Shown here one piece after another: positions 2,879-14,164 of a stretch of 49,498 nucleotides of DNA. The notes beneath the pieces were generated by a model. It did not search any database and was not told where the DNA came from. It saw nothing but the letters and a program-made list of their open reading frames with translations. Position numbers and translations under genes: made by a program. Numbering within the stretch: position 1 is the first letter of the stretch; the number at the start of each line of letters is the position of its first letter. This DNA is from Dactylosporangium siamense (GTDB lineage Bacteria > Actinomycetota > Actinomycetes > Mycobacteriales > Micromonosporaceae): the NCBI RefSeq assembly GCF_016862795.1, contig NZ_BONQ01000031.1, positions 1 through 49,498 on the forward strand. The letters are read 5' to 3'.

Positions 2879-3356
2879 AGGAGGACGCGAGCCACGCACC
2901 CACGGCGGCGACATCGTCCCGGGTGAGACCCCGACGAGCATCGACCGCGTGCAGCAGCGCCGGGCCGGGGTGGTGCGCGGCGACCCACGCACGGTCAGCG
3001 GCGGCGATCTCGTCGTCGACCCAGACGAACGCACGCCCGGCCGCCCACGCGACCAGACCACGGGTCTTCCAGTGCACCGGACCGGGATCATCCTCGTCCG
3101 GCCAGGACACGACCGGCAACGACGGCAGGTCGAGCAACGGGCCGACGACCTCGTTGGCGTCGGCGCCCCACGTGGTCGCCCACACCAGGTCGCACGGCAG
3201 CGCCGTCAGCCAGGCGCCGAGACGAGGGTCGAGGCGGGCGAGCAGCGGGTTGCCCCGCGCCGCCGCACGGATCCGCGCCGAGGCCGGCGGGCCGTACTCC
3301 CGCGCACCGAACGGAATGAGCGGGCCGTCGACGTCGAGGAACAGCACCGGTCGCAC
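2874..3356 (-). CDS. HAD-like hydrolase domain protein
   Basis: 160 residues. The N terminus reads P-V-L-F-L-D-V-D-G-P-L, the HAD motif I with nucleophile and acid/base Asp. A D-L-V-W-A-T-T-W motif II-like stretch follows in the middle, and F-V-W-V-D-D-E carries the distal acidic pair near residue 115. HAD proteins are mostly phosphatases; the substrate here is unknown and there is no large cap domain. The start is GTG at 3356, 7 nt downstream of a TACGCT -10 box, so the mRNA is probably leaderless. Confidence 0.75.
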   Translation of the reverse strand: MRPVLFLDVDGPLIPFGAREYGPPASARIRAAARGNPLLARLDPRLGAWLTALPCDLVWATTWGADANEVVGPLLDLPSLPVVSWPDEDDPGPVHWKTRGLVAWAAGRAFVWVDDEIAAADRAWVAAHHPGPALLHAVDARRGLTRDDVAAVGAWLASSS

Positions 3357-3363
3357 CCGTCAC

Positions 3364-3369
3364 AGCGTA
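3364..3369 (-). promoter_or_regulatory. -10 box, leaderless start of HAD-like gene
   Basis: On the minus strand TACGCT precedes the GTG at 3356 by 7 nt (GTGACGG), with no ribosome binding site. Confidence 0.5.
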
Positions 3370-3412
3370 GAGGAGAGGTCAGCCGCGGAGCCGGTCCGTT
3401 CCCATGTTCGGT

Positions 3413-3462
3413 GGGCCCGCCGGGGCACGTCACAGGTCTGCATCGTGGTGCACGGCGGGCCC
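3413..3462. repeat. 10-bp inverted repeat between divergent genes
   Basis: GGGCCCGCCG (3413-3422) is repeated inverted and exact as CGGCGGGCCC (3453-3462) with a 30-nt spacer, upstream of the DUF4259 gene. It may be a regulator site or a leader hairpin. No function can be assigned. Confidence 0.4.
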
Positions 3463-3500
3463 GATGACGGCTTGCCCGTCGGATCGGCGATGATCAGGGT

Positions 3501-3935
3501 GTGGGAACTTGGGATTCCGGACCGCTGGACAACGACACCGCCGCCGACTGGTGCCGCGAGTTGCATGATGCTCCGGCGGCCGAACGGACAGCGATGGTTC
3601 GCACGGCGTTGACCGTCGTGATCGGCCACGACGCCGACACGTACCTGGACGACGACTTCGCGGTCGAGGCGATCGCAGCGGCGGCGGTCATCGCCGCGCA
3701 GCTGCCCGACGGCCCGCGCCTTGACTCCCCGTACGCGCCGGACTTCATCCACGCCGGCGGTGGCCTCGACGTGCCCGACGGCCTGCCTTCGCTGGCGTTG
3801 CTGGCGCTGGACCGTATTGACGGCGCGAACTCGGCGCTGCCGGGCCTGTGGGAGGACGGCTACCCGACGGTGCTCGAGCGCCGTCGACCGATCCGCGCCG
3901 CCCTTGAACGAGCGGCCGGCTCATCGCCTGGCTGA
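3501..3935 (+). CDS. DUF4259 domain protein
   Basis: 144 residues. The opening M-G-T-W-D-S-G-P-L-D-N-D-T-A-A-D-W is the hallmark of DUF4259, a soluble helical family of unknown function found in many bacteria. The start is GTG at 3501, since the family begins exactly at this Met-Gly-x-Trp. The family aligns over its full length. No operon partners: the downstream gene is on the opposite strand. Confidence 0.85.
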   Translation: MGTWDSGPLDNDTAADWCRELHDAPAAERTAMVRTALTVVIGHDADTYLDDDFAVEAIAAAAVIAAQLPDGPRLDSPYAPDFIHAGGGLDVPDGLPSLALLALDRIDGANSALPGLWEDGYPTVLERRRPIRAALERAAGSSPG

Positions 3936-3972
3936 GTTCGCGGTGCCGGTGAATGGAGTCGCAGGACCGGAC

Positions 3973-4860
3973 CTACGTATCGCTGCGATGGGGTTCGACG
4001 GCGTCCAGAAGCACTCTGATCAGACAGCGTCGCCGGCCTGCCTCGACATCGTCCTGGAAGGCGTCTCGCGCGTGCAGGATCAGATGGTCGTTGATGATGA
4101 GCAGGTCACCCTCGGCGAGGGTGTAGCGGAACTGCAGCGCGGGTCGCATCATGACGGTGTCCAATGCGTCGAGGGCCATCCTGTCCAGGTCTGTCAGGGG
4201 TTTACCCGTGAGCGCCTGCGCCATCTCGATCCGTTGCCGGTTGCAGCGGACAAGCCATCCCTCTGGTCGTTCGTCGAAGACCGGCGCCATGATCCACTGC
4301 TGGCCGCCGTGGTCGACGTGGCTCCGTTCAAATGCGTACGGGCGGCACAGCCGCGTCAGCGCCTCCGAAAATTCCTGTCGGAGGTTTTCGACAATGGTCG
4401 GAACGCTCAACAGGACCGACTGGCCACCCGCGGCAGCCGAACCCAGACACAGCAGAGCGAAGTAGTCGATCTCGTCGCCGAGGTTGCTCATCGCGCTGTC
4501 ATTGTGAATGTCAAGCTCGTCGTGTGACTTCGAGGTGTAGACGCCGGGGGCAAACGACCCGTCGGGCCGGAAACGGGACGATCCCTCGTCCCGGACGATC
4601 CAGCCCAGCGTTGTGGCACCGGCGGGGCCCTGGGGGCGCGGCCGACCGAGGAAGCGCACGATCGACGGCGCGAAGTCCGAACACTCCTCAGGGCTCCGGC
4701 CCGCGATCGGGACGTCGGTCACCAGCGCGAAGCCCGGATGCCCATCCAGTGGCCCACGGACCGCGGCTGCCAACGCAACCGGATCGGCCACGTACGGGAT
4801 TCGCCAGTGGGTCGAGGACTTCAGCTCATCCGCATACCACCCCGGTCGCTCGGCAGGCAT
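3973..4860 (-). CDS. TauD/TfdA (clavaminate-synthase-like) Fe(II)/2-oxoglutarate dioxygenase
   Basis: About 295 residues. The facial triad is visible: the H-N-D motif in the stretch L-D-I-H-N-D-S (His119, Asp121) and the distal His263 in L-I-L-H-A-R-D-A-F. A 2-oxoglutarate-binding Arg follows in C-L-I-R-V-L-L (about residue 282). The N-x-x-L-I-L-H-x-R-x-x-F pattern is typical of the clavaminate synthase / arginine beta-hydroxylase branch, which hydroxylates amino acids or natural-product scaffolds. I chose ATG at 4860 because it overlaps the glycosyltransferase stop as TGATG and has GGAG about 9 nt upstream. ATG at 4875 is an alternative, but its GGAGGA directly abuts the codon. It is the last gene of the STAND/glycosyltransferase/dioxygenase operon. 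Confidence 0.85.
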   Translation of the reverse strand: MPAERPGWYADELKSSTHWRIPYVADPVALAAAVRGPLDGHPGFALVTDVPIAGRSPEECSDFAPSIVRFLGRPRPQGPAGATTLGWIVRDEGSSRFRPDGSFAPGVYTSKSHDELDIHNDSAMSNLGDEIDYFALLCLGSAAAGGQSVLLSVPTIVENLRQEFSEALTRLCRPYAFERSHVDHGGQQWIMAPVFDERPEGWLVRCNRQRIEMAQALTGKPLTDLDRMALDALDTVMMRPALQFRYTLAEGDLLIINDHLILHARDAFQDDVEAGRRRCLIRVLLDAVEPHRSDT

Positions 4861-6005
4861 CACGACGGACTCCATTCCTCCATCGTGCGGTGTCGGGCAA
4901 GGGTGTCAAGGATCGAGGTGGCGCATTCGTCGGCGCTGGGCATGGTCCCCATCTCCTGGGACAGGCGCCACGCGTTTCGGTGGTAGAGGTTGTCCGCGCA
5001 GATCCGGTGGACGGCGTCGACCACGGCACTGTCCACGTCCGGCGCCTGGCCAAGGTCGATTCCGGCACCAAGGCTCGCCACCCGGAAGGAGTTGTAGGAC
5101 TGATCGGCTCCCATCGGCTGGCAAACGACCGGGATCCCCAGCGCGAGGCAGTCCAGCATGGTGCTCCGACCCCCGTGACACACGACGATGTCCTGGTCGC
5201 GGAGCCAATCCAGGTAGGCGGCGCGCGGCTGCGGCGATCCGTTGGTGCCGTTCAACCGGGTAACTGAGAATCCTTCCCCGGTCAACGCGGCCGCTGCCTT
5301 GTGCAGCGACGGAGAGAAGCCGGAATAGACCGTTCCGAAGGTGATGCCGATCTTGCGAGAGGTGCCGGGCACGGGAACGGCAGTCCTCATGTCTCGCAGC
5401 GCGATGTCGGAAAGCATCGGATTCATGAAGAGGTCCTGCGGGCGGCGGGACGAGAGGGGATTCGGCTGGAACGACGGCGGTATCGTGTCGATGCAGACAT
5501 GTCCCCAGAAGCCGTCCATCGCCGGATCCTGGGCCAGCCCGGCCCCGGTCCGCAGCGACGACCACAGCTGGTGCCAGCGCGCCCGCTGGGTCTCGATCGG
5601 CGAGCGAAATGTGGTGGCGACGCAGACGCGGTAGCTCCCGACGCGCTCTCCGTAGAGAGCCCCAGCAAAATCGTGATCATCGTGGACGATCACGTTGGGT
5701 CGGAGCGCAGGGTCGGCGCGGATCATCGCCGTCAACATCTCGGCGCTCCGGGTGGAGAAGATCCGCGACCAGTGCTCTCGCGGGGTCGCGGTCGGGTAGC
5801 GCTCGCGAGCGCGACGAAGGTCGTCGGCCAGGGTCCATTCCGGGCCGATGTCGAGCGTCGCGTAGCCCATCCGCCGGAGTATGGCGGTGGAAAGGCGGCT
5901 GCCGGCCAGCCTGACTTCGCAGCCGGCCCGTATCAGCGCGTCGGCCAATGGCCGCAAAGGATAGATGTGTCCATACCCGGGTAGCACCGAGAACAGGACC
6001 GTCAC
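4860..6005 (-). CDS. GT1-type (GT-B) glycosyltransferase
   Basis: 381 residues. The N terminus reads L-P-G-Y-G-H-I-Y-P-L-R-P-L-A, with the catalytic-type His13 and the family P-L motif. The C-terminal nucleotide-sugar motif is H-G-G-R-S-T-M-L-D-C-L-A-L-G-I-P followed by Q-P-M-G-A-D-Q. These are the signatures of macrolide/aglycone glycosyltransferases (YjiC/MGT/EryCIII class), which move an NDP-activated sugar onto small hydrophobic acceptors. I chose GTG at 6005 because it forms a GTGA overlap with the stop of the STAND gene. The upstream in-frame extension to 6173 is Arg-rich and reads antisense to STAND codons. Acceptor and sugar are unknown, and no sugar-biosynthesis genes are present here. 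Confidence 0.88.
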   Translation of the reverse strand: MTVLFSVLPGYGHIYPLRPLADALIRAGCEVRLAGSRLSTAILRRMGYATLDIGPEWTLADDLRRARERYPTATPREHWSRIFSTRSAEMLTAMIRADPALRPNVIVHDDHDFAGALYGERVGSYRVCVATTFRSPIETQRARWHQLWSSLRTGAGLAQDPAMDGFWGHVCIDTIPPSFQPNPLSSRRPQDLFMNPMLSDIALRDMRTAVPVPGTSRKIGITFGTVYSGFSPSLHKAAAALTGEGFSVTRLNGTNGSPQPRAAYLDWLRDQDIVVCHGGRSTMLDCLALGIPVVCQPMGADQSYNSFRVASLGAGIDLGQAPDVDSAVVDAVHRICADNLYHRNAWRLSQEMGTMPSADECATSILDTLARHRTMEEWSPS

Positions 6006-9000
6006 CACCCTCGCCACCCGACGACCTTCTGGGCGATCAGCTCGTCCGGCCAGCGGCAACCCAGAGCGTCGAGCTGCTGACGGGCGAGCGACAGCAGGCG
6101 CTCTCGCGACGAGTCGTCGGTGATCGACGCCAGCTGGAGACGAGCCTGGGCTGTGCCCAGTTCGCTCCCGCACTCGGTGAACAGCGCTGTCGCATTGTCG
6201 AGTGCCCCGGTGGCCCGATGGCGATCACCGTGCAGGACGGCGATCTGCGCGATGGTGAACCAGCCCCAAGCCTCGCCGCGGGTGTCGCCGATCGTCCGGA
6301 AATTCTCGATGAGGTGGTCAAGCTCTGCCAGCTGCCCTCCGTCGCGTGGCAGTGCACCCGATCGAATCTTCAGCTCGATGGCGACCAGTGCCACCCAGGT
6401 CTGCCCGATCTTCGCTGGGTACCGTTCAAACGCCTCCCTCGCCTGACTGAGGGAGGCCGCAGCCGCGGCGTAGTCGCCTGCGTCCGACAACGCCTGCGCG
6501 AGACTGAAACCGATCCAACCGACCGCGCGCGGGTATCCATCGGCAATGGCGCGGCTCAGCCCGGCGGACAGTTCCCGGACAGCACCGGCGACATCTCCGG
6601 CGACGCGATAGACGGACCCGAGGCCGAGATGTGGGTAGCTCCGCATGGCGGTGTGCGCTTCCACACCCTCCAGCGATGCCAGAGCCTCTCGATAGCATTG
6701 CGTTGCTTCGGCCGGGGAGTCGCCCAGACGGAATGACTCACCCAGGCGAAACTGGGCCCAGGCAATGCCGACCTTGTCGCCGATCGAGGTGAAGACGTCG
6801 GACGCCTTCTGGAGCTCGGCCTGGGCTTCCGACGCCCGCCCGATTCGGGAGAGCGCCACCCCGAGGTGCAGTGCCATGGTGGCACTGCCCATCACGTTGT
6901 GGCTCCGTGCCGCGGCCTCGGCGCCGAGCCTGCACGCGTTGATCCAGGCATCCCAGCTGCAGGTCGAGTCGAGATAGGTGCTGACAGCGCGAGCGAGCAG
7001 CCAGACCTCGTCGAACAGCCCGTCCTTGAATGCCTGCTCGATCAGGACCGTGATGTTTCGGGCCTCGCCATCCATCCAGGTCACCGGATTCTCACGGACG
7101 ACAACGGCAAGCGTGCCGATCTCCACCCAGGTGGAGGCGCCGAGCGCGCCCTCGATCTGGCCGCCGTCCAGCCCGATGGCCAATCCGGCCTCCTCGGCGA
7201 GGACGATGTAGGCCGCCAGCACGTTGCGGAGGAAACGGACCCGCGCCTCGTCGTCGGACGCGGCGAACTTTCTCCCGAGATCACGAAGCAGATCGTGGTA
7301 GCGATATTGCCGCTCGGTCGCCGTCGCAGTTCGACCCACCACGTCCACGAACTGCTGGTCGGCCAGCCGCTGCAGTGATCTCCGGGCAGTGTCCAGCGAG
7401 GTCCCATCCCCGGTGCCCAGATGCCAGGCTTGGAACTCAGCGGTCGGTAGTGTCGCGAGCAGACCGAAGGCCTTTTGGGCCGCAGGCTCCAGGGATGGGT
7501 AGTTGAGGCTGAGCGATGCCTCGAGGTCGAGGTCGCCGATCCTCATCTCGGCCAGGCGGAGTTTGGAGTTCGAGTAGGTGCGGTCCAGCTCCGTCAGCGT
7601 GGACTCGGGACGCAGCCGGAGCGCGGCAGCAACGATTCGCAGTGCCAGTGGTAGCCGCCCGCAGGTCGCACACAGTTGTTCGACGATGCGCTCGTCGGCC
7701 TGGTCGTATGCTCTGTTGCGATAGATGAGCTCCTTGGCGTCGTTCATGTCGAGCTCGCGAAGCCAGAGATTTTCGAGACCCTCGATGGAGATCGCCTGCC
7801 GGGACGTCACGATGACGCCGGTGCTGCCGTCGGCGGGCAGCAGCGGCCGCACCTGATGTTCGTCGGCGCAGTTGTCCAGGACCAGCAGGGTCTTCATCGT
7901 GCCGAGGATGGCCCGCAACTGACCGGAGCGAAGGCCGCGGTCGCGGGAGATCTTCGATGGTGCGAGGCCGTAGGCGCGCAGGATCTCGCCGGTGACCTCG
8001 AAGGTGTCGAGCGCCTCCGCCTCATAGCCGCGCATGTTGATGTAGATCGTCCGGTCGTAGTCCGGCGCAAACCTCTGCGCGGCGACGATGGCGAGCGTGG
8101 TCTTGCCGATGCCGGCCCGCCCGTAGATGTTGGCGAAGAGCGGTGGAAGGTCGTTCCTGATGCGGAGCAGTTGCTCCAGCTCCGCGGCGCGGCCGACGAA
8201 GTCGCGCGGCGCCGACGGGAGCGCGAATATGGTGGCCGTCAGGTCACGCCGGCCCTCCGAAGCTTCCTTCGGCCGGCTCCTGGTCTGATCCGTGAGCGTC
8301 TGATCCGTAAGCGTCTGGACCTCATGCTTCAGCGTCAGGTAGCGCACATCGTCAAGGTCGCTCGGCTTGATGATCGTGAAGTGGTCGCCGGGCAAGGTCC
8401 GTGTGTCGGGGAACACCGACCGGCCCGGCACGTCCTTGACGACGTTGTCCTCCGTTCCGACCGTCGCCAGAATCTTGATCCGGTACCGCGGATCGGGAGG
8501 AATCAGGATGCTTTCGAAGATCCGCCGCTGAGCCGCGTTGACCTGCTCGTCGAGTGGCCGCAGCTCCCGCTCCTGCGGGTTGCCGCCCAGCAGGCGGAAG
8601 AGCGGCCGACGCAGGGACAGCGCGAGGTCCGAGCCGCCCGTGGGCGTCGCGTACATGAGCAGGCCGACCACGCGGTGCAGCGTCGATGACTCAGGCCGGC
8701 TGACCTCCGCGGCGATGTAGCGCTGCGCGACGAGCCCACCCTGGCTGTGGGCGACCAGCAGGATCGACGGTTCGACCACTCGCAGGTCGATGAAGTCGCC
8801 GAGGCCACGCGCGATGTTGTCGATGGATGGCAGCCGCTTCAGTGGATTGAGCTGCGCGATTTTGGAGGTGTACTCGTACTGGTAGACCGTCACCTGCTCG
8901 CTGACCGGCGCGTCGCTGCTCAGCAGACTTTCCATCTGCGTCCACGTGTGGGGGCCTGACAGGAACCCATGTATGAACACGAGGGCCAGTCGAGCGTCCT

Positions 9001-9010
9001 GACCGGTCAT
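6002..9010 (-). CDS. STAND protein: alpha/beta hydrolase - NB-ARC NTPase - TPR
   Basis: 1002 residues in three parts. (1) Residues about 1-225 form a lipase-like alpha/beta hydrolase: oxyanion motif F-I-H-G-F, nucleophile Ser89 in A-H-S-Q-G-G-L, probable Asp188 in G-T-E-D-N-V-V and His210 in G-D-H-F-T-I. (2) Residues about 265-600 form an NB-ARC/AP-ATPase module: Walker A G-R-A-G-I-G-K-T-T (297-305), Walker B T-L-L-V-L-D-N (374-380), V-T-S-R sensor (401-404), a GxP motif G-R-L-P-L-A-L (451-457), and Y-H-D-L-L in the place of the MHD motif. (3) The C-terminal third is made of TPR-like helical repeats. STAND proteins are switch-like sensors in which ligand sensing by the repeats triggers NTP-driven assembly and activates the N-terminal effector. 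The catalytic triad looks intact. It heads a coupled operon with a glycosyltransferase and a dioxygenase. Whether it is a regulator, a defence protein or a biosynthesis switch cannot be decided from sequence. Confidence 0.88.
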   Translation of the reverse strand: MTGQDARLALVFIHGFLSGPHTWTQMESLLSSDAPVSEQVTVYQYEYTSKIAQLNPLKRLPSIDNIARGLGDFIDLRVVEPSILLVAHSQGGLVAQRYIAAEVSRPESSTLHRVVGLLMYATPTGGSDLALSLRRPLFRLLGGNPQERELRPLDEQVNAAQRRIFESILIPPDPRYRIKILATVGTEDNVVKDVPGRSVFPDTRTLPGDHFTIIKPSDLDDVRYLTLKHEVQTLTDQTLTDQTRSRPKEASEGRRDLTATIFALPSAPRDFVGRAAELEQLLRIRNDLPPLFANIYGRAGIGKTTLAIVAAQRFAPDYDRTIYINMRGYEAEALDTFEVTGEILRAYGLAPSKISRDRGLRSGQLRAILGTMKTLLVLDNCADEHQVRPLLPADGSTGVIVTSRQAISIEGLENLWLRELDMNDAKELIYRNRAYDQADERIVEQLCATCGRLPLALRIVAAALRLRPESTLTELDRTYSNSKLRLAEMRIGDLDLEASLSLNYPSLEPAAQKAFGLLATLPTAEFQAWHLGTGDGTSLDTARRSLQRLADQQFVDVVGRTATATERQYRYHDLLRDLGRKFAASDDEARVRFLRNVLAAYIVLAEEAGLAIGLDGGQIEGALGASTWVEIGTLAVVVRENPVTWMDGEARNITVLIEQAFKDGLFDEVWLLARAVSTYLDSTCSWDAWINACRLGAEAAARSHNVMGSATMALHLGVALSRIGRASEAQAELQKASDVFTSIGDKVGIAWAQFRLGESFRLGDSPAEATQCYREALASLEGVEAHTAMRSYPHLGLGSVYRVAGDVAGAVRELSAGLSRAIADGYPRAVGWIGFSLAQALSDAGDYAAAAASLSQAREAFERYPAKIGQTWVALVAIELKIRSGALPRDGGQLAELDHLIENFRTIGDTRGEAWGWFTIAQIAVLHGDRHRATGALDNATALFTECGSELGTAQARLQLASITDDSSRERLLSLARQQLDALGCRWPDELIAQKVVGWRGW
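8283..8312 (-). repeat. two-copy 15-bp tandem repeat in the STAND linker
   Basis: Units 8283-8297 and 8298-8312 are identical at 14 of 15 positions. They encode a duplicated T-L-T-D-Q block at residues about 233-243, in the linker between hydrolase and NB-ARC domains. The duplication keeps the frame. Confidence 0.8.
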
Positions 9011-9132
9011 CTCGTCCGCGCGATCGCAGGCGTCATGACGAAATGATCGCGGAACGGGCGGCTGGGCGCCACACGTCGGCCGCGGGAATCAGGATCAGCG
9101 CCATCGCGCAGGTCAGCTTGCCTCCAAGGCGT

Positions 9133-9558
9133 TCACCCGGACGACGGGATCCGTCCGGCGCTGTCCCGGTTGACCCGGCGGCGGATGATGTCCGCGACGG
9201 ACGGGCCGCCGGCGAAGCACCACAGGGCGATGACCGGGTCGCAGATCGCGCAGCCGAACGACGAGTCGTGCGCGAACGGCAGCAGCGGCTCGCCGCGCAG
9301 GTGGTGCGCGACGTCCCAGGCGGTGTGCAGCAGCCAGCCGACGCCGATCCACCGCCACGACGACAGCCCCCGGAACGCGACGACCGTCATCACGGTCGTG
9401 AACGCCAGTTCGAGGGGCCCGAAGGCGCCGCCGCTGAGGTACGCCGCGCCGGCACCGGCCACCATCAGCGCGTTGAACGGCCGGCGGTGCCGGGACGGGA
9501 TGAACGAGTTGAGCGCCGCGTAGAGCAGCCCGATGAGCACGGGCCCCAAGATGGACAT
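9133..9558 (-). CDS. DUF6010-like integral membrane protein
   Basis: 141 residues with about four hydrophobic segments. Recognisable conserved blocks are M-V-A-G-A-G-A-A-Y-L-S-G-G, G-W-L-L-H-T-A-W-D-V-A-H-H-L and S-S-F-G-C-A-I-C-D-P-V-I-A-L-W. I match these from memory to the DUF6010 family of small membrane proteins of unknown function. The conserved His and Cys residues (H-T-A-W-D-x-x-H-H; C-A-I-C) could bind metal, but that is speculation. The start ATG at 9558 follows a TAGCGT -10 box by 6 nt. Confidence 0.75.
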   Translation of the reverse strand: MSILGPVLIGLLYAALNSFIPSRHRRPFNALMVAGAGAAYLSGGAFGPLELAFTTVMTVVAFRGLSSWRWIGVGWLLHTAWDVAHHLRGEPLLPFAHDSSFGCAICDPVIALWCFAGGPSVADIIRRRVNRDSAGRIPSSG

Positions 9559-9564
9559 GCCGCG

Positions 9565-9570
9565 ACGCTA
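9565..9570 (-). promoter_or_regulatory. -10 box, leaderless start of DUF6010 gene
   Basis: Minus-strand TAGCGT, 6 nt (CGCGGC) before the ATG at 9558, with no ribosome site. Confidence 0.5.
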
Positions 9571-9613
9571 AGCGCGCCGCCGGGGCCACGACAGCGGCGC
9601 GGCTGCCACGTTC

Positions 9614-10417
9614 CTACGGGAAATGGACACGCAGGAACTCGCGCAGCACGGCCAGCCACGCGTCGGGCTGGTCCAGGTGCACGTCGTGCCCCGCGTCCGG
9701 CACCACGACGTGCGCGGTGCCGGGCCGCAGCGCCACCATCCGCTCCACCTCGCCCGCGGGGCCGGTGCCGTCGGAGCCCCGGACCAGCAGCGTGGGCGCC
9801 CGCACCGCGGTCCAGTCGTCCCACCGCGCGACGTCCGCGACGCCCCGGATCGCCGCCGTCATCACGGCACCGTCGAAGCGGGGCCACAGCCCGCCGTCGC
9901 GCTGCTCCAGGTCGTCGGCCCACGTCTGCGCCAGGGACCGCCCGCCGAGGAACTCGACCGCCGCCGCCCGGGACGGGAACGGCACCGGCCACGACGCGAA
10001 CCATGCCTCGAGCCGGCTCGGGTAGTCACCGTCGTCGCCGCCGACCCCGCCCTCCAGCATGACCAGGCCCCGCACCCGCGACGGGTGCCAGGCGGCGACG
10101 AGCATCGCGGTGTGGGCGCCCATCGACTGCCCTGCCAGGACCGCCGGCGCATCGGTGAACGCGTCCAGGACAGCGATCACATCGTCCACATACGCGCGCC
10201 GCGACACGTCCCCGGGATGCCGGGTGGAGCGGCCGTGCCCGCGCTGATCGGGCACCACGACCGTGTGCGCGTCGAGCAGGGCGGTGGCGGTCGGGACCAG
10301 CTCGTGCGCGCTGCCGGCCAGGCCATGCAGCAGGACCACCGGCGGCCCGGATCCGCCGACGAGCGCCGAGATCGTCACGTTGTCCCGTCGCAGGGTCATC
10401 CTTCGCACCGGCGCCAT
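9614..10417 (-). CDS. alpha/beta hydrolase
   Basis: 267 residues with the classic alpha/beta hydrolase layout. There is an oxyanion H-G-L-A-G (31-35), D-Q-R-G-H-G-R-S (57-64), nucleophile Ser98 in G-Q-S-M-G-A, an acidic residue in L-V-R-G-S-D-G-T and the terminal His in D-A-G-H-D-V-H. Size and motifs match the esterase, haloperoxidase-like and C-C hydrolase families, and the substrate is open. The start is ATG 10417 or ATG 10399. The longer frame to 10546 would overlap the divergent serine hydrolase gene and is rejected. Only 14 bp separate the two divergent starts. Confidence 0.85.
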   Translation of the reverse strand: MAPVRRMTLRRDNVTISALVGGSGPPVVLLHGLAGSAHELVPTATALLDAHTVVVPDQRGHGRSTRHPGDVSRRAYVDDVIAVLDAFTDAPAVLAGQSMGAHTAMLVAAWHPSRVRGLVMLEGGVGGDDGDYPSRLEAWFASWPVPFPSRAAAVEFLGGRSLAQTWADDLEQRDGGLWPRFDGAVMTAAIRGVADVARWDDWTAVRAPTLLVRGSDGTGPAGEVERMVALRPGTAHVVVPDAGHDVHLDQPDAWLAVLREFLRVHFP

Positions 10418-10419
10418 CG

Positions 10420-10425
10420 TAGAGT
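10420..10425 (+). promoter_or_regulatory. -10 box, leaderless start of serine hydrolase
   Basis: TAGAGT, then 6 nt (GCGGTG), then ATG at 10432. The same TAGAGTGCGG string precedes the FAD oxidoreductase start on the minus strand at 31348-31339. Confidence 0.55.
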
Positions 10426-10431
10426 GCGGTG

Positions 10432-11802
10432 ATGGACGGGTTCGTAGCCGCGGCGGAGAAGCTCGGCGTGCACGGCTTCGTGCTGCTGCGCGATGGCGAG
10501 ACCGTCGCGGAGGGCCATTGGCATCCTTACGAGCCCGACGAGCCACAGACCCTGTACTCGCTGAGCAAGAGCTTCGCCTCCACCGCCGTCGGGCTGGCCG
10601 TCGCCGACGGGCTGCTGTCCGTGGACGATCACGTCGCCGACCTCCTGCCCGTCGGCGATCAGCAAAACGACCTGCGCGGGATGCGGGTGCGGCACCTGCT
10701 GACGATGACCACCGGCCACGACACCGACGCCGCCCCGCTGATGGACGAGGACCCGGACGGCGACTGGGTCCGCGTGTTCCTCGGCGTGCCCGTCGCGCAC
10801 GAGCCCGGCACCCGGTTCGTCTACAACAGCGGCGCCACCTACGCGCTGTCCGCCATCGTGCAGCGGCACACCGGCGAGACCCTGCTGGACTACCTGCGGC
10901 CGCGGCTGTTCGAGCCGCTCGGGTTCGGCCCGGCCGAGTGGGACAGCTGCCCGCGCGGGATCAACCTCGGAGGCTGGGGGCTGCGCCTGCGGACCGCCGA
11001 CGTGGCACGGTTCGGCGAGGTGTACCGGTGCGGCGGTCGCTGGCAGGGCCGGCAGCTGCTGCCGGCGGGCTGGGTCGACGCGGCGACCGCCTTCCAGGTG
11101 CCGACGGCGGACACGAACGGGTCACCGGACTGGCAGCAGGGCTACGGCTTCCAGTTCTGGCGGTGCCGGCACGGCGCGTACCGTGGCGACGGCGCGTTCG
11201 GCCAGTTCGTCATCGTCATGCCGGCCCAGGCGTCGGTGCTCGCGATCACCGCCGGCACCGCCGACATGCAGGCCGTCCTGGACGCGGTGTGGACGCATGT
11301 GCTGGACGCCACGCCGGCGCCACCGCCGCGCCCGCAGGGGCCGCGCCTGGAGGGGCTGCGGCTGCCGGCGCTCACCGACACCGCCGAACCGGACGCGGAG
11401 CTGCCCGGCCGCCGGTTCCGGGTCGCCGACCCCCTTGCCCCGCCGCAGCGTGGCGGCCGGCCACTCATCGACCAGCCCACCCGGATGCTCGGTTTCGCGG
11501 TGGCACGGGCAGCGGCCGGCTGGCTCGTCGAGCTCGACGACGAGCACGGCGAGCACCGGTTCCGGTGCGAACCCGGCCGGTGGCACCGCTCGACCTTGAC
11601 CTTGTCCGACGGTGGGACGCACCCGATCGCCACCACCGGCGCCTGGCGCGACCCGCGAACGTTCGAGCTGCGGGTGTGCCACACCGGCGAGCCGTGCACC
11701 AGGACGTACACCGCGACGTTCGACGCCGGCGGGGTCACGATCGCCGGGGAGGACTCGGTCGGGTTCGACTTCACCGTCCATCCGCCGGTCCGGGCGGTGT
11801 AG
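10432..11802 (+). CDS. serine hydrolase, beta-lactamase class C / esterase-like
   Basis: 456 residues. The S-x-x-K motif is S43-L-S-K46, followed by the second catalytic motif Y131-N-S in F-V-Y-N-S-G-A. This is the fold of class C beta-lactamases, D-alanyl-D-alanine carboxypeptidases and EstB-like esterases. No signal peptide is seen, so it is probably a cytoplasmic esterase or peptidase, not a secreted beta-lactamase. The last 130 residues form an extra C-terminal domain after a Pro-rich hinge (about 295-305), as in other long members. The start is ATG 10432, with GTG 10429 adjacent. Confidence 0.85.
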   Translation: MDGFVAAAEKLGVHGFVLLRDGETVAEGHWHPYEPDEPQTLYSLSKSFASTAVGLAVADGLLSVDDHVADLLPVGDQQNDLRGMRVRHLLTMTTGHDTDAAPLMDEDPDGDWVRVFLGVPVAHEPGTRFVYNSGATYALSAIVQRHTGETLLDYLRPRLFEPLGFGPAEWDSCPRGINLGGWGLRLRTADVARFGEVYRCGGRWQGRQLLPAGWVDAATAFQVPTADTNGSPDWQQGYGFQFWRCRHGAYRGDGAFGQFVIVMPAQASVLAITAGTADMQAVLDAVWTHVLDATPAPPPRPQGPRLEGLRLPALTDTAEPDAELPGRRFRVADPLAPPQRGGRPLIDQPTRMLGFAVARAAAGWLVELDDEHGEHRFRCEPGRWHRSTLTLSDGGTHPIATTGAWRDPRTFELRVCHTGEPCTRTYTATFDAGGVTIAGEDSVGFDFTVHPPVRAV

Positions 11803-11912
11803 CAGCGCCAGCCATCCCGGAAATGTGCCAGGTGGCGTCGCTGCGCGGGCGGAGCGGTCGTTGACCCTTCAAGGTGGAGATCACCAGGTCACATCGCCCC
11901 CGAGGAGCCGTC

Positions 11913-12467
11913 ATGCCGCGCCGCCCCGTCCTTGCCGTCACCGCCCTGCTGACCGGTGCCCTGAGCCTCGCCGGGTGCGGCGTGCTCAAGGGTGCCGACG
12001 ACACCCCCACCCCCGGAGCCGCCGCCACCACCGGCGGTGCCGCCAGCGCCCCCGCCGCCACGAAGAGCGCCCCTGCCGCCACGAAGAGCGCCCGCCCGGC
12101 CGGGTTACCCGACATCTGCACGCTGCTGACGAAGGCCGAGGTCAAGACCCTCACCGGCAAGACGGTGACCCTGATGAGCAACGAGGGCGGCAACAGCTCC
12201 GGCGCCCGCTACTGCCAGTGGCAGCTCAGCGCCGGCCAGCTCGACGTGACGGTCAACATCGAGACCCGCGACCAGTTCGACGTGCAGAACAAGGACGCCG
12301 ACCAGGTCGACGGGATCGGCGAGTCCGCCTACTCCCTGGCCGGGCACCTGTACGTGTACGCCGCCGGCAAGGTCGTCGACGTCTACGCCACCTCGGCCAG
12401 CACGGACGCCGGCAACCTCAAGGTCGAGCGCGCCACCGCCGAGAAGGTCCTGCCCAAGTTGCAGTAG
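11913..12467 (+). CDS. DUF3558-like lipoprotein
   Basis: 184 residues. A signal sequence with lipobox L-A-G-C puts Cys at about residue 22, followed by an Ala/Thr/Pro-rich low-complexity tether (about 28-65) containing a duplicated A-A-T-K-S-A-P block. The globular part then opens L-P-D-I-C-T-L-L-T-K-A-E-V and has Y-C-Q-W, with V-D-G-I-G-E-S-A-Y near the end. That pattern is typical of DUF3558 and related actinobacterial surface lipoproteins of unknown function. The ATG at 11913 has GAGGAG 5 nt upstream; the frame upstream to 11874 lacks a signal peptide context. Confidence 0.8.
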   Translation: MPRRPVLAVTALLTGALSLAGCGVLKGADDTPTPGAAATTGGAASAPAATKSAPAATKSARPAGLPDICTLLTKAEVKTLTGKTVTLMSNEGGNSSGARYCQWQLSAGQLDVTVNIETRDQFDVQNKDADQVDGIGESAYSLAGHLYVYAAGKVVDVYATSASTDAGNLKVERATAEKVLPKLQ

Positions 12468-12470
12468 GCG

Positions 12471-12914
12471 TCAGCCGATCCGGATGACGATGACCTCGTC
12501 GTCGGCGACCTCGGCGACGCAGTCGTGCAGCAGGACGATCACGTCCCGGCCGGCCGCACCGGCGTCGGCCGGGTCCAGGTCGATGCGGTCCTCGGCGAAG
12601 CGGTCACGGAACTCGGCGTCGCCGAACGCGTCCGGGTCCAGGCGCGGCAGGAACTCGCGGTGCTGCGGGGTCAGCAGCACCGTGAACCGGTCGTCGTCCT
12701 CGGGCACCTCGTCCAGCAGCCGGTCGTACTGCGACGTGTGCAGCGTGACGCCACTGTCGCCGAGCAGCTCCAGGACCGGCAGGATCACGTAGGCGGGCCA
12801 GTCGAAGGACACCTCGAGCGGCGTGCCGAGCTTCTCCAGCACGGCTGCGGGATCGCGGGTGAACTCAGCGACGTCCGTCGCCTTGAGGGAGCTGAAACTG
12901 GCCACTGCGGACAT
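12471..12914 (-). CDS. hypothetical protein, possibly DUF1877 (YfbM)-like
   Basis: 147 residues, acidic and soluble. The N-terminal pattern (V-A-S-F-S-S-L-K-A-T-D-V-A-E-F followed by D-P-A-A-V-L-E-K-L-G) recalls DUF1877 proteins, but I cannot confirm the match. Its start lies inside the 3' end of the EI24 gene (about 50 nt overlap, different frame). A TACGGT -10 box 7 nt before the ATG suggests its own leaderless promoter. It is convergent with the lipoprotein gene, with a 3-bp gap. Confidence 0.65.
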   Translation of the reverse strand: MSAVASFSSLKATDVAEFTRDPAAVLEKLGTPLEVSFDWPAYVILPVLELLGDSGVTLHTSQYDRLLDEVPEDDDRFTVLLTPQHREFLPRLDPDAFGDAEFRDRFAEDRIDLDPADAGAAGRDVIVLLHDCVAEVADDEVIVIRIG

Positions 12915-14040
12915 GGTCCTGACCGTACCGGAACCTCGGATCCAGCCACGGCGCGGGCGCCGCCGCCACGGACGGCGGCGGCGTGATGATCCGTCGGTGC
13001 AGCAGGACCGCGCCGACCAGCACCGACGGGGCGGTCACCAGGTACAGCACCGCACCCGGCAACGCGAAGATCTCCGGGATCGGCACGATCGCCAGGAACC
13101 GCAGCGACAGCACCGGCAGGATCAGCGCGACGAGGCTCATGATGCCGAACCCGGTGACGTAGGCCCGGTGCCGCCACGCGAACGTCAGCTGCTGCTTGAC
13201 GCCGTGCACGCCGTGGTGGTGCATCGGCACGGCGAGGACCAGTACCCCCACCAGGAACCCGTTGAAGAACAGCCCCACGCCGAACGCGACGGCGAGGTTG
13301 AAGCCCGGCAGCAACAGCAGCGGCAGGCAGATCAGCCAGCCGAGGTGCAGGACCAGCGTCACGATGAGGGTCTGGCGCAGGCAGACGCCGGCGGCCCGCC
13401 ACCACGGTGGCGGCACCACGTCGGCGCCGCCGGTGCGCCGCACCACGCTGCGGGTCATGAACGGCAGGAAGAACGAGCCGAGGAACATCGTGATGGGCAC
13501 CGTCAGCGCCGTCAGCAGCAGGTGGAACACGGCCACGGCGGCCCACTTCATGATCCACCGTAGCGCCCACCGCAGCGGCGACGGCCAGCTGGAGACGAAG
13601 CCGAGCAGCCAGTCCACGGCGAGGCCGACGAGCCGCGAGACGCCCTCCTCCGCGGCCAGCAGGCACACCGCGGTCAGCAGGACCGGCAGCAGCGCCCAGA
13701 ACCACAGCCTCGGGGAGCGGACGAAGTACGCGATGCCGCGCCAGAAATACCCGAACCCGATGAAGAACCGTCCGACGCTGCTCGCGGCCCGTTTGGCCCC
13801 GGCGACGGTGTGCCGGCTCGCGGTCCCGGCCGCACCCGCGACCCGCAGTGCGGCCGCCTGCGCCGCGGCCTGCGCGACCTGCGCCGCCTGCGCCGCGACC
13901 TGGGCCGCCTGGCCGGCCTGCGCCGCGGCCTGGGCGAGGTGGCCGGCCTGCGCGACCGACCGGGTCTCCACGGGCACCTGCGGCGGCGGCACGTAGGGCG
14001 CGGCCGGCGGCGCCTCCGGTCGGCGTAACTGCTCGTCCAA
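12865..14040 (-). CDS. EI24/CysZ-like integral membrane protein
   Basis: About 391 residues. The N terminus is soluble: a Pro-rich stretch, then an Ala/Gln heptad-like block (repeats of A-Q-A-A and A-Q-V-A). The EI24 domain follows with about six hydrophobic helices, starting G-F-G-Y-F-W-R-G-I-A-Y-F and including a family-typical P-I-T-M-F-L-G-S-F-F-L-P-F. EI24/CysZ proteins include the sulfate permease CysZ, but no sulfate genes are nearby, so transport is not established. The frame extends to an ATG at 14157. I prefer TTG at 14040, because the added 39 codons use rare AT-ending codons (TTA, AGA, ACA, GTT) and a GAAGAGGG ribosome site precedes the TTG. A TTA leucine codon lies at codon 5. 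Confidence 0.75.
   Translation of the reverse strand: MDEQLRRPEAPPAAPYVPPPQVPVETRSVAQAGHLAQAAAQAGQAAQVAAQAAQVAQAAAQAAALRVAGAAGTASRHTVAGAKRAASSVGRFFIGFGYFWRGIAYFVRSPRLWFWALLPVLLTAVCLLAAEEGVSRLVGLAVDWLLGFVSSWPSPLRWALRWIMKWAAVAVFHLLLTALTVPITMFLGSFFLPFMTRSVVRRTGGADVVPPPWWRAAGVCLRQTLIVTLVLHLGWLICLPLLLLPGFNLAVAFGVGLFFNGFLVGVLVLAVPMHHHGVHGVKQQLTFAWRHRAYVTGFGIMSLVALILPVLSLRFLAIVPIPEIFALPGAVLYLVTAPSVLVGAVLLHRRIITPPPSVAAAPAPWLDPRFRYGQDHVRSGQFQLPQGDGRR
12922..12927 (-). promoter_or_regulatory. -10 box inside the EI24 3' end
   Basis: Minus-strand TACGGT, 7 nt (CAGGACC) before the ATG at 12914, located within the coding end of the upstream gene. Confidence 0.45.
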
Positions 14041-14164
14041 GACCCGCCCTCTTCCCCGTCGGCCGGACGCCGAGCGTAACGACTCGGCCCCCGTACGTCG
14101 AGTTGCGCCGGCTTCGCGGGCCGGGTACCTCGTCCGTGTGTATCGCCGAACGGCCATGACTCCA

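Follow-up and report, generated by a model that had tools for sequence, protein, structure and literature searches.

A hydrolase-NB-ARC-TPR protein encoded in an overlapping gene set with a glycosyltransferase and a dioxygenase in Dactylosporangium siamense

Gene layout and domain content of the operon

The stretch of DNA analyzed here, referred to as the window, comprises 49,498 nucleotides of Dactylosporangium siamense (contig NZ_BONQ01000031.1), and within it we studied three overlapping genes on the minus strand. These encode a protein of the STAND class with an N-terminal alpha/beta-hydrolase domain, an NB-ARC domain and TPRs (hereafter STAND), a glycosyltransferase (GT) of the GT-B type and a dioxygenase (DOX) of the Fe(II)/2-oxoglutarate (2OG) type (Table 1). 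A preliminary description had proposed the overlapping arrangement with its GTGA and TGATG junctions as well as the three domain assignments. The list of open reading frames (ORFs) and the sequence agree with both junctions, and all Pfam calls exceed their cut-offs (Abhydrolase_6, NB-ARC and TPR_12 for STAND, EryCIII-like_C and UDPGT for GT, and TauD for DOX).

Table 1. Positions of the operon genes, their overlaps and domains, an adjoining gene and the cassette loci found elsewhere
Feature	Position	Strand	Basis or content
STAND protein, 1002 aa (alpha/beta hydrolase - NB-ARC - TPR)	6002..9010	-	ORF list; Pfam Abhydrolase_6, NB-ARC, TPR_12
GT-B (GT1-type) glycosyltransferase (GT), 381 aa	4860..6005	-	Pfam EryCIII-like_C 49.8 bits, UDPGT 36.9 bits
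TauD/TfdA-family Fe(II)/2OG dioxygenase (DOX), 300 aa	3973..4875	-	Pfam TauD 82.5 bits
STAND/GT stop-start overlap GTGA	6002..6005	-	sequence
GT/DOX stop-start overlap TGATG	4858..4862	-	sequence
N-terminal alpha/beta-hydrolase domain, putative effector, residues 1-250	8261..9010	-	triad Ser89-Asp188-His210
NB-ARC NTPase domain, residues 286-487	7550..8155	-	Pfam 41.3 bits, cut-off 23.5
TPR region, residues about 710-865, probably further	6416..6883	-	TPR_12 710-780 above cut-off; TPR_14 836-865 just below
DUF4259 gene	3501..3935	+	adjoins operon; GC3 0.834, fourth lowest of 15
Cassette loci	L080:3647-8633, L079:4061-8909, L135:3084-8443, L084:7525-12930		STAND, 58-69-codon peptide gene, 2OG-Fe(II) oxygenase, PhzF-like

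The GT ORF is listed as 4860-6173, beginning at a GTG further upstream, and the protein has 381 aa if the GTG at 6005 is used. For DOX, two ATG codons are candidate starts, at 4875 (300 aa) and at 4860 (295 aa); a GGAG is located 9 nt upstream of the latter, which is the start with the better-placed GGAG and the one chosen in the preliminary description. The gene overlaps suggest that STAND, GT and DOX are co-transcribed. A scan limited to sigma-70-like promoters gave none in 3800-9300, and the same region contains one terminator-like site versus 1.7 expected. A small peptide gene was recognized neither upstream (9001-9140) nor downstream (3501-3990) of the operon, and Rfam returned nothing in the window at gathering score.

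The hydrolase domain of STAND carries Ser89, Asp188 and His210, which are the same in all 19 aligned hydrolase domains and, judged from the alpha/beta-hydrolase fold, probably form a Ser-Asp-His catalytic triad. In the NB-ARC domain, we take GRAGIGKTT to be the Walker A motif and LLVLDN to be a Walker B-like motif; the sequence further reads GRLPLAL, and a YHD further on presumably occupies an MHD-like place. A match to PDB sequences aligns residues 258-787 with AfsR, and the NCBIfam scores of the protein are 209 bits for HaaT (NF041717; cut-off 1125), 169 bits for AfsR (NF053617; cut-off 1430) and 68 bits for FxsT (NF040586; cut-off 300), no NCBIfam model being reached at cut-off by STAND, GT or DOX. 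In sequence terms, the NB-ARC-TPR half of STAND is thus of the AfsR/HaaT kind. STAND is nevertheless not a member of the AfsR/SARP regulators, because the DNA-binding part is missing: Pfam detects neither a DNA-binding nor a BTAD domain in the protein, and a hydrolase occupies its N-terminus. The HaaT and FxsT scores likewise place it outside these two families, and it was not assigned to the ternary VMAP/EAD systems, as no EAD Pfam match was obtained in STAND at E 0.01.

GT scored above the Pfam cut-offs of both GT1/GT-B models, and its best relative by sequence in the PDB is CalG1 (E 1.9e-19). The best other match in 300 genomes of the window's family is 31% identical, and there was no match in 345 genomes of the class at E 1e-25. 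DOX exceeds the TauD cut-off of 27 bits and retains the ligand positions of the TauD/TfdA family: H124, D126 and H268, which from family knowledge we take to be the HxD..H iron ligands, are invariant in five of five aligned sequences. Its best PDB relative by both sequence and fold is 7n7v (TtnM, of tautomycetin biosynthesis), followed by sequence by FrbJ, gamma-butyrobetaine dioxygenase and TmpA, with clavaminate synthase also among the likenesses; the predicted model of DOX is of moderate confidence (pLDDT, predicted local distance difference test, 60.7), and the fold matches support the family only. Both proteins look like natural-product (antibiotic) tailoring enzymes, and since this holds for both, an order in which hydroxylation precedes glycosylation is possible.

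Genomic contexts of the hydrolase domain

Relatives of the hydrolase domain were found in 12 of 200 genomes of the family and 3 of 188 genomes of the class (the window's own genome being included in each count), and in 30 plasmid records. Among six short hydrolase forms that were scanned, four (L074, L077, L081 and L083) carry EAD2 above cut-off and two (L085 and L087) have no EAD2. The Gly/Asn/Gln-rich tails of the latter two (L085:7237-8052, FQFGDGNTQ; L087:5956-6762, VQIGDGGVQ) may resemble bacterial RHIM-like amyloid signaling motifs. In other proteins, the hydrolase is fused to NB-ARC/TPR or STAND-like NTPases (L079, L080, L086 and L136, to which L084 and L135 were added by similarity to L080), to WD40 repeats (L117, on a Streptomyces plasmid) or to FG-GAP repeats (L115 according to Pfam and L116 according to the record annotation, likewise on Streptomyces plasmids).

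One of the short forms, L083, lies in the window's own genome (contig C132), where genes for a vWA protein, an 852-aa protein without Pfam match, the hydrolase-EAD2 protein, a VMAP-C protein and a MoxR-like AAA_5 ATPase are located on one strand. This neighborhood resembles a VMAP-type conflict system. In two descriptions of EAD/VMAP/STAND conflict systems, alpha/beta-hydrolases appear as partners or effectors (Kaur et al., 2020, PMC7159879; Kaur et al., 2021, PMC8195603), and the second assigns membrane-lipid hydrolysis to one of them (Kaur et al., 2021, PMC8195603).

Since the hydrolase is reused together with EAD2, STAND and VMAP settings and its triad is invariant, STAND reads best, from its sequence features, as an NLR-like (nucleotide-binding leucine-rich repeat-like) conflict protein in which the hydrolase would be the direct effector. 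It combines an intact NB-ARC NTPase and C-terminal superstructure-forming TPR repeats, which would serve as the sensor, with an N-terminal domain that recurs in other conflict systems and retains its active-site residues. Its type is known, whereas its setting is new.

Four of the hydrolase-STAND loci (Table 1) share a cassette in which a 2OG oxygenase and a PhzF-like enzyme are encoded downstream of the STAND gene on the same strand, in a gene order that varies among the loci. Two of the hosts (L079 and L080) belong to one genus of the window's family, one (L084) to another genus of that family and one (L135) to another order. The oxygenase exceeds the Pfam cut-off in L079, L080 and L084, whereas that of L135 falls below it (23.5/27 bits) but is 62% identical to the one of L084. 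A short ORF of 58-69 codons lies between the STAND gene and the enzyme genes at all four loci. The peptides of L079 and L080 have 43 of 61 aligned residues in common, with 10, 11 and 24 changes at the first, second and third codon positions, respectively, the third thus carrying the most, and those of L084 and L135 match at 44%; none of the cassette peptides matched the window at E 0.01. The cassette is possibly a system of the ribosomally synthesized and post-translationally modified peptide (RiPP) type or a signal-peptide system. Searches of a library of open-licence papers, only a minority of them naming PhzF, brought up no description of it. Next to the cassette of L080, a small gene (L080:8630-9064) overlaps the start of the hydrolase-STAND gene by 4 bases; by eye it appears to encode a membrane protein, whose N-terminal 68 residues show 88-90% conservation in L079 and L082.

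A 2OG oxygenase of either type was present at four of seven other hydrolase-STAND loci, compared with none of 13 other hydrolase loci, none of 15 STAND loci of the window's own genome and none of 20 arbitrary stretches of that genome, the four positive loci having contributed to the oxygenase profile and the profiles used being of a kind that would miss other oxygenase types. PhzF, detected with Pfam, and the peptide gene are independent signs of the cassette. The denominator of seven includes L136 and L086, which have no oxygenase or PhzF by profile, and L082, which is cut by a contig end and was counted as a hydrolase-STAND locus since its hydrolase is 74% identical to that of L080. The NTPase half of the window's STAND gave no match to that of L080 with tblastn at E 1e-3.

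Recurrence, composition and genomic site of the trio

Relatives of DOX and GT were sought in 300 genomes of the family, 345 genomes of the class and plasmids, and relatives of STAND in the 300 family genomes and plasmids; DOX was additionally searched in seven genomes of the genus and by two contig scans, of which the first gave nothing and the second six loci. The genome searches scored few candidates each (e.g., 2/100 in G000 for STAND), so that a distant orthologue could escape, and the contig scans depend on exact short motifs. The preliminary description had named recurrence at unrelated genomic sites, to be sought by a neighborhood search, as support for a functional unit, and this recurrence was not borne out: none of 14 DOX loci, representing 12 distinct records (L035 and L088 share one record, as do L037 and L089), has a GT relative by profile or a hydrolase-STAND gene, and none of four GT loci (about 30% identity) has DOX or STAND. 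The specific trio is thus not established as a widespread unit.

In two cases, genes of the AfsR-type NB-ARC-TPR kind adjoin a dioxygenase or a glycosyltransferase. At one of the 14 DOX loci (L040:4876-9328), a distant TauD relative (36% identical to DOX) overlaps convergently with the end of an AfsR-type BTAD-NB-ARC-TPR gene. At one of the 15 STAND loci of the own genome (L119:5898-10274, contig C55), an EryCIII-like GT gene lies on the same strand as an AfsR-type BTAD-NB-ARC-TPR gene, 36 bp behind it, and an MFS gene comes later; the NB-ARC of this locus is 33% identical to that of the window over 401 aligned positions, and the two GTs match over just 81 residues (28%). The nearest relatives of DOX itself (two in the family, with 57 and 52% identity, and one with 44% on a plasmid of Streptomyces) are encoded beside RidA and YheO-like PAS genes. 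This association, seen at L033, L035 and L036, suggests a separate conserved metabolic module.

The preliminary description had also noted codons less GC-saturated than those of the flanking genes, and the computed GC content at third codon positions (GC3) agrees: DOX (0.797), GT (0.830) and STAND (0.831) have the three lowest values among 15 local genes, followed by the DUF4259 gene (0.834), with 0.972 as the highest. The operon has a GC content of 66.2%, and none of 402 overlapping 5-kb windows, taken from 35 stretches (566 kb in all) of this 12.7-Mb genome, is as low; their mean is 72.6% and their minimum 66.65%, the lowest being just 0.4 points above the operon. As had been suggested, this atypical composition fits horizontal acquisition without proving it, and we consider that the operon was probably acquired horizontally. 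A phage origin was rejected: a search of 50,697 phage records with DOX and GT found nothing, and the hydrolase profile gave no match in viral contigs.

No orthologous operon was found in the genus-mates, in line with the preliminary description. In the genus-mate G001, 11 of 12 flanking query genes were matched with 72-92% identity, the twelfth being the unmatched DUF4259 gene, whereas none of the three operon genes had a match within the 34 kb read. Among the 300 genomes of the family, in each of which few candidates were scored, only the own genome gave STAND at E 1e-90. The operon lies at a rearrangement breakpoint, because the G001 block corresponding to window positions 9133-14157 runs in the opposite orientation there. 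Compared with L142/L143, the operon site (window 3356-9133) is one end of this inversion between the window's genome and G001. The DUF4259 gene was found at E 1e-10 in the own genome only (one of seven genomes of the genus) and is possibly part of the same acquired islet.

Interpretation and comparison with known systems

Our preferred account of the trio, which we hold tentatively and rate as falling somewhat short of an even chance, is that an NLR-like conflict protein with a hydrolase effector acts jointly with two enzymes that work on one small molecule. It draws on the reuse of the hydrolase with EAD2, STAND and VMAP-type partners, the invariant triad, the likeness of DOX and GT to tailoring enzymes, the 2OG oxygenase at four of seven other hydrolase-STAND loci, and the low GC3 and close overlaps common to the three genes. 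An NB-ARC switch of the AfsR/HaaT type, together with the TPRs as sensor, would restrain the N-terminal serine-hydrolase effector. Binding of a ligand at the TPR region would lead to ADP/ATP exchange and oligomerization through NB-ARC, and the clustered hydrolase domains would then cleave an ester, a thioester or a lipid. DOX and GT, if co-translated, could act sequentially on one small molecule, the former adding a hydroxyl group that the latter would cap. This molecule might be a toxic compound undergoing detoxification, or a cue or product that sets the sensor. A link between the sensor and oxidation is plausible, while the function of the trio as a whole and the coupling of STAND to the enzymes are inferred.

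Several results weigh against this account. The trio was not found in any genome or plasmid searched, and the partners of the dioxygenase at L040 and of the GT at L119 are AfsR-type regulators, not hydrolase-STANDs. The cassette oxygenases are of the WelO5/2OG-FeII_Oxy_3 type, not TauD, and in place of a GT the cassette loci have PhzF and a peptide gene, both of which the window lacks; neither the WelO5-like oxygenase profile nor the PhzF profile matched in it, which places it outside the cassette. FxsT is the best-scoring model for the NTPase halves of L080 (196 bits) and L135 (184 bits), HaaT for that of the window. The four cassette loci form one related family and thus represent roughly one evolutionary event, to which the window would add at most a second. 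STAND does not correspond to a known anti-phage system in PADLOC 2.0.0, where its NTPase region obtained just 18.8 and 13.8 bits and where GT and DOX gave nothing, and the structure of the hydrolase predicted from a single sequence (pLDDT 32.5) was left unused. As for the coupling of a STAND sensor to metabolite-modifying enzymes that the preliminary description had considered, the four-locus cassette with its 2OG oxygenase lends it indirect support.

The absence of relatives of all three genes from any one locus, the partial pairs being confined to L040 and L119 with their AfsR-type regulators, is what would be expected if three independently useful genes had come together by chance at a rearranging site, with the overlaps reflecting compact packing. 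The RidA/PAS context of the nearest dioxygenases and the position of the site at a breakpoint relative to G001 also favor such an assembly, but the two stop-start overlaps and the common low GC3 suggest that the genes traveled jointly, and 2OG oxygenases recur beside hydrolase-STAND genes; we regard it as rather unlikely. The pairs at L119, where the GT gene follows at 36 bp on the same strand, and at L040, with its distant dioxygenase, are also consistent with an orphan natural-product tailoring operon, in which STAND would be an AfsR-like regulator or an accessory enzyme while GT and DOX would finish a scaffold made elsewhere in the genome. The closeness of the NB-ARC-TPR part to AfsR and HaaT and the resemblance of GT and DOX to antibiotic-tailoring enzymes agree with it; however, STAND has no DNA-binding or BTAD domain, unlike the proteins of L119 and L040, and its hydrolase family is common to EAD2 and VMAP-type settings, which leaves this explanation unlikely, though it and chance assembly are the main rivals of our account.

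Hydrolysis, hydroxylation and glycosylation all belong to known inactivation chemistry, and the three proteins might accordingly form an islet in which hydrolase, hydroxylase and GT act directly on an incoming antibiotic and the STAND part serves as the sensor. GT does give weak scores to two NCBIfam models of macrolide self-immunity/inactivation GTs (19.0 and 15.6 bits), but both models require 700 bits, far more than that, and none of the three proteins attained the cut-off of an NCBIfam model; we consider this origin of the gene set very unlikely.

Returning to the conflict-protein account, a wider form of it would see hydrolase-STANDs as actinomycete NLR-like receptors hard-wired to enzymes that tailor small molecules or peptides, the partner that recurs being a 2OG oxygenase (together with peptide and PhzF in one lineage, and as TauD together with GT in the window) and the enzymes making or modifying the ligand of the receptor. 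We regard this generalization as doubtful and decidedly improbable at present. If true, it would describe an immune receptor of bacteria that reads a molecule made in-house. If some bacterial NLR-like proteins are co-expressed with tailoring enzymes that produce or edit their ligand, or that neutralize the same threat, bacterial innate immunity would be tied to natural-product chemistry, and a handle on what TPR sensors detect would be gained. The four-locus peptide/oxygenase/PhzF cassette is directly testable.

Among known systems, the EAD/VMAP and STAND conflict systems share with the window the hydrolase family, which is fused to EAD2 and lies near vWA, VMAP-C and AAA_5 genes in its own genome (systems as described in PMC7159879 and PMC8195603). 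In the window, however, the hydrolase is fused to NB-ARC with TPRs, and no EAD, vWA, AAA_5/MoxR or VMAP match was obtained with Pfam in the eight window proteins scanned; GT and TauD partners are not mentioned in the accessible parts of these descriptions (PMC7159879, PMC8195603). The AfsR/SARP regulators (PMC10936776; PDB 8k60, 8jke) align with the NB-ARC-TPR half of STAND (residues 258-787), whereas their DNA-binding/BTAD part is replaced by the hydrolase in the window. HaaT and FxsT, TPR proteins of RiPP systems, are similar in the NB-ARC-TPR part (209 and 68 bits) but far under their cut-offs (1125 and 300), and no radical SAM match was found with Pfam in the eight window proteins. GT has the GT-B family and the C-terminal sugar-binding region in common with CalG1 and related antibiotic glycosyltransferases, although its best other match in the 300 family genomes is the one of 31% identity given above. 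DOX finds its best match by sequence and fold in the tautomycetin hydroxylase TtnM (7n7v) and the TauD/TfdA tailoring hydroxylases, with which it shares the conserved iron-ligand positions, even though the identity in the fold alignment, made on a DOX model of moderate confidence, is 25%.

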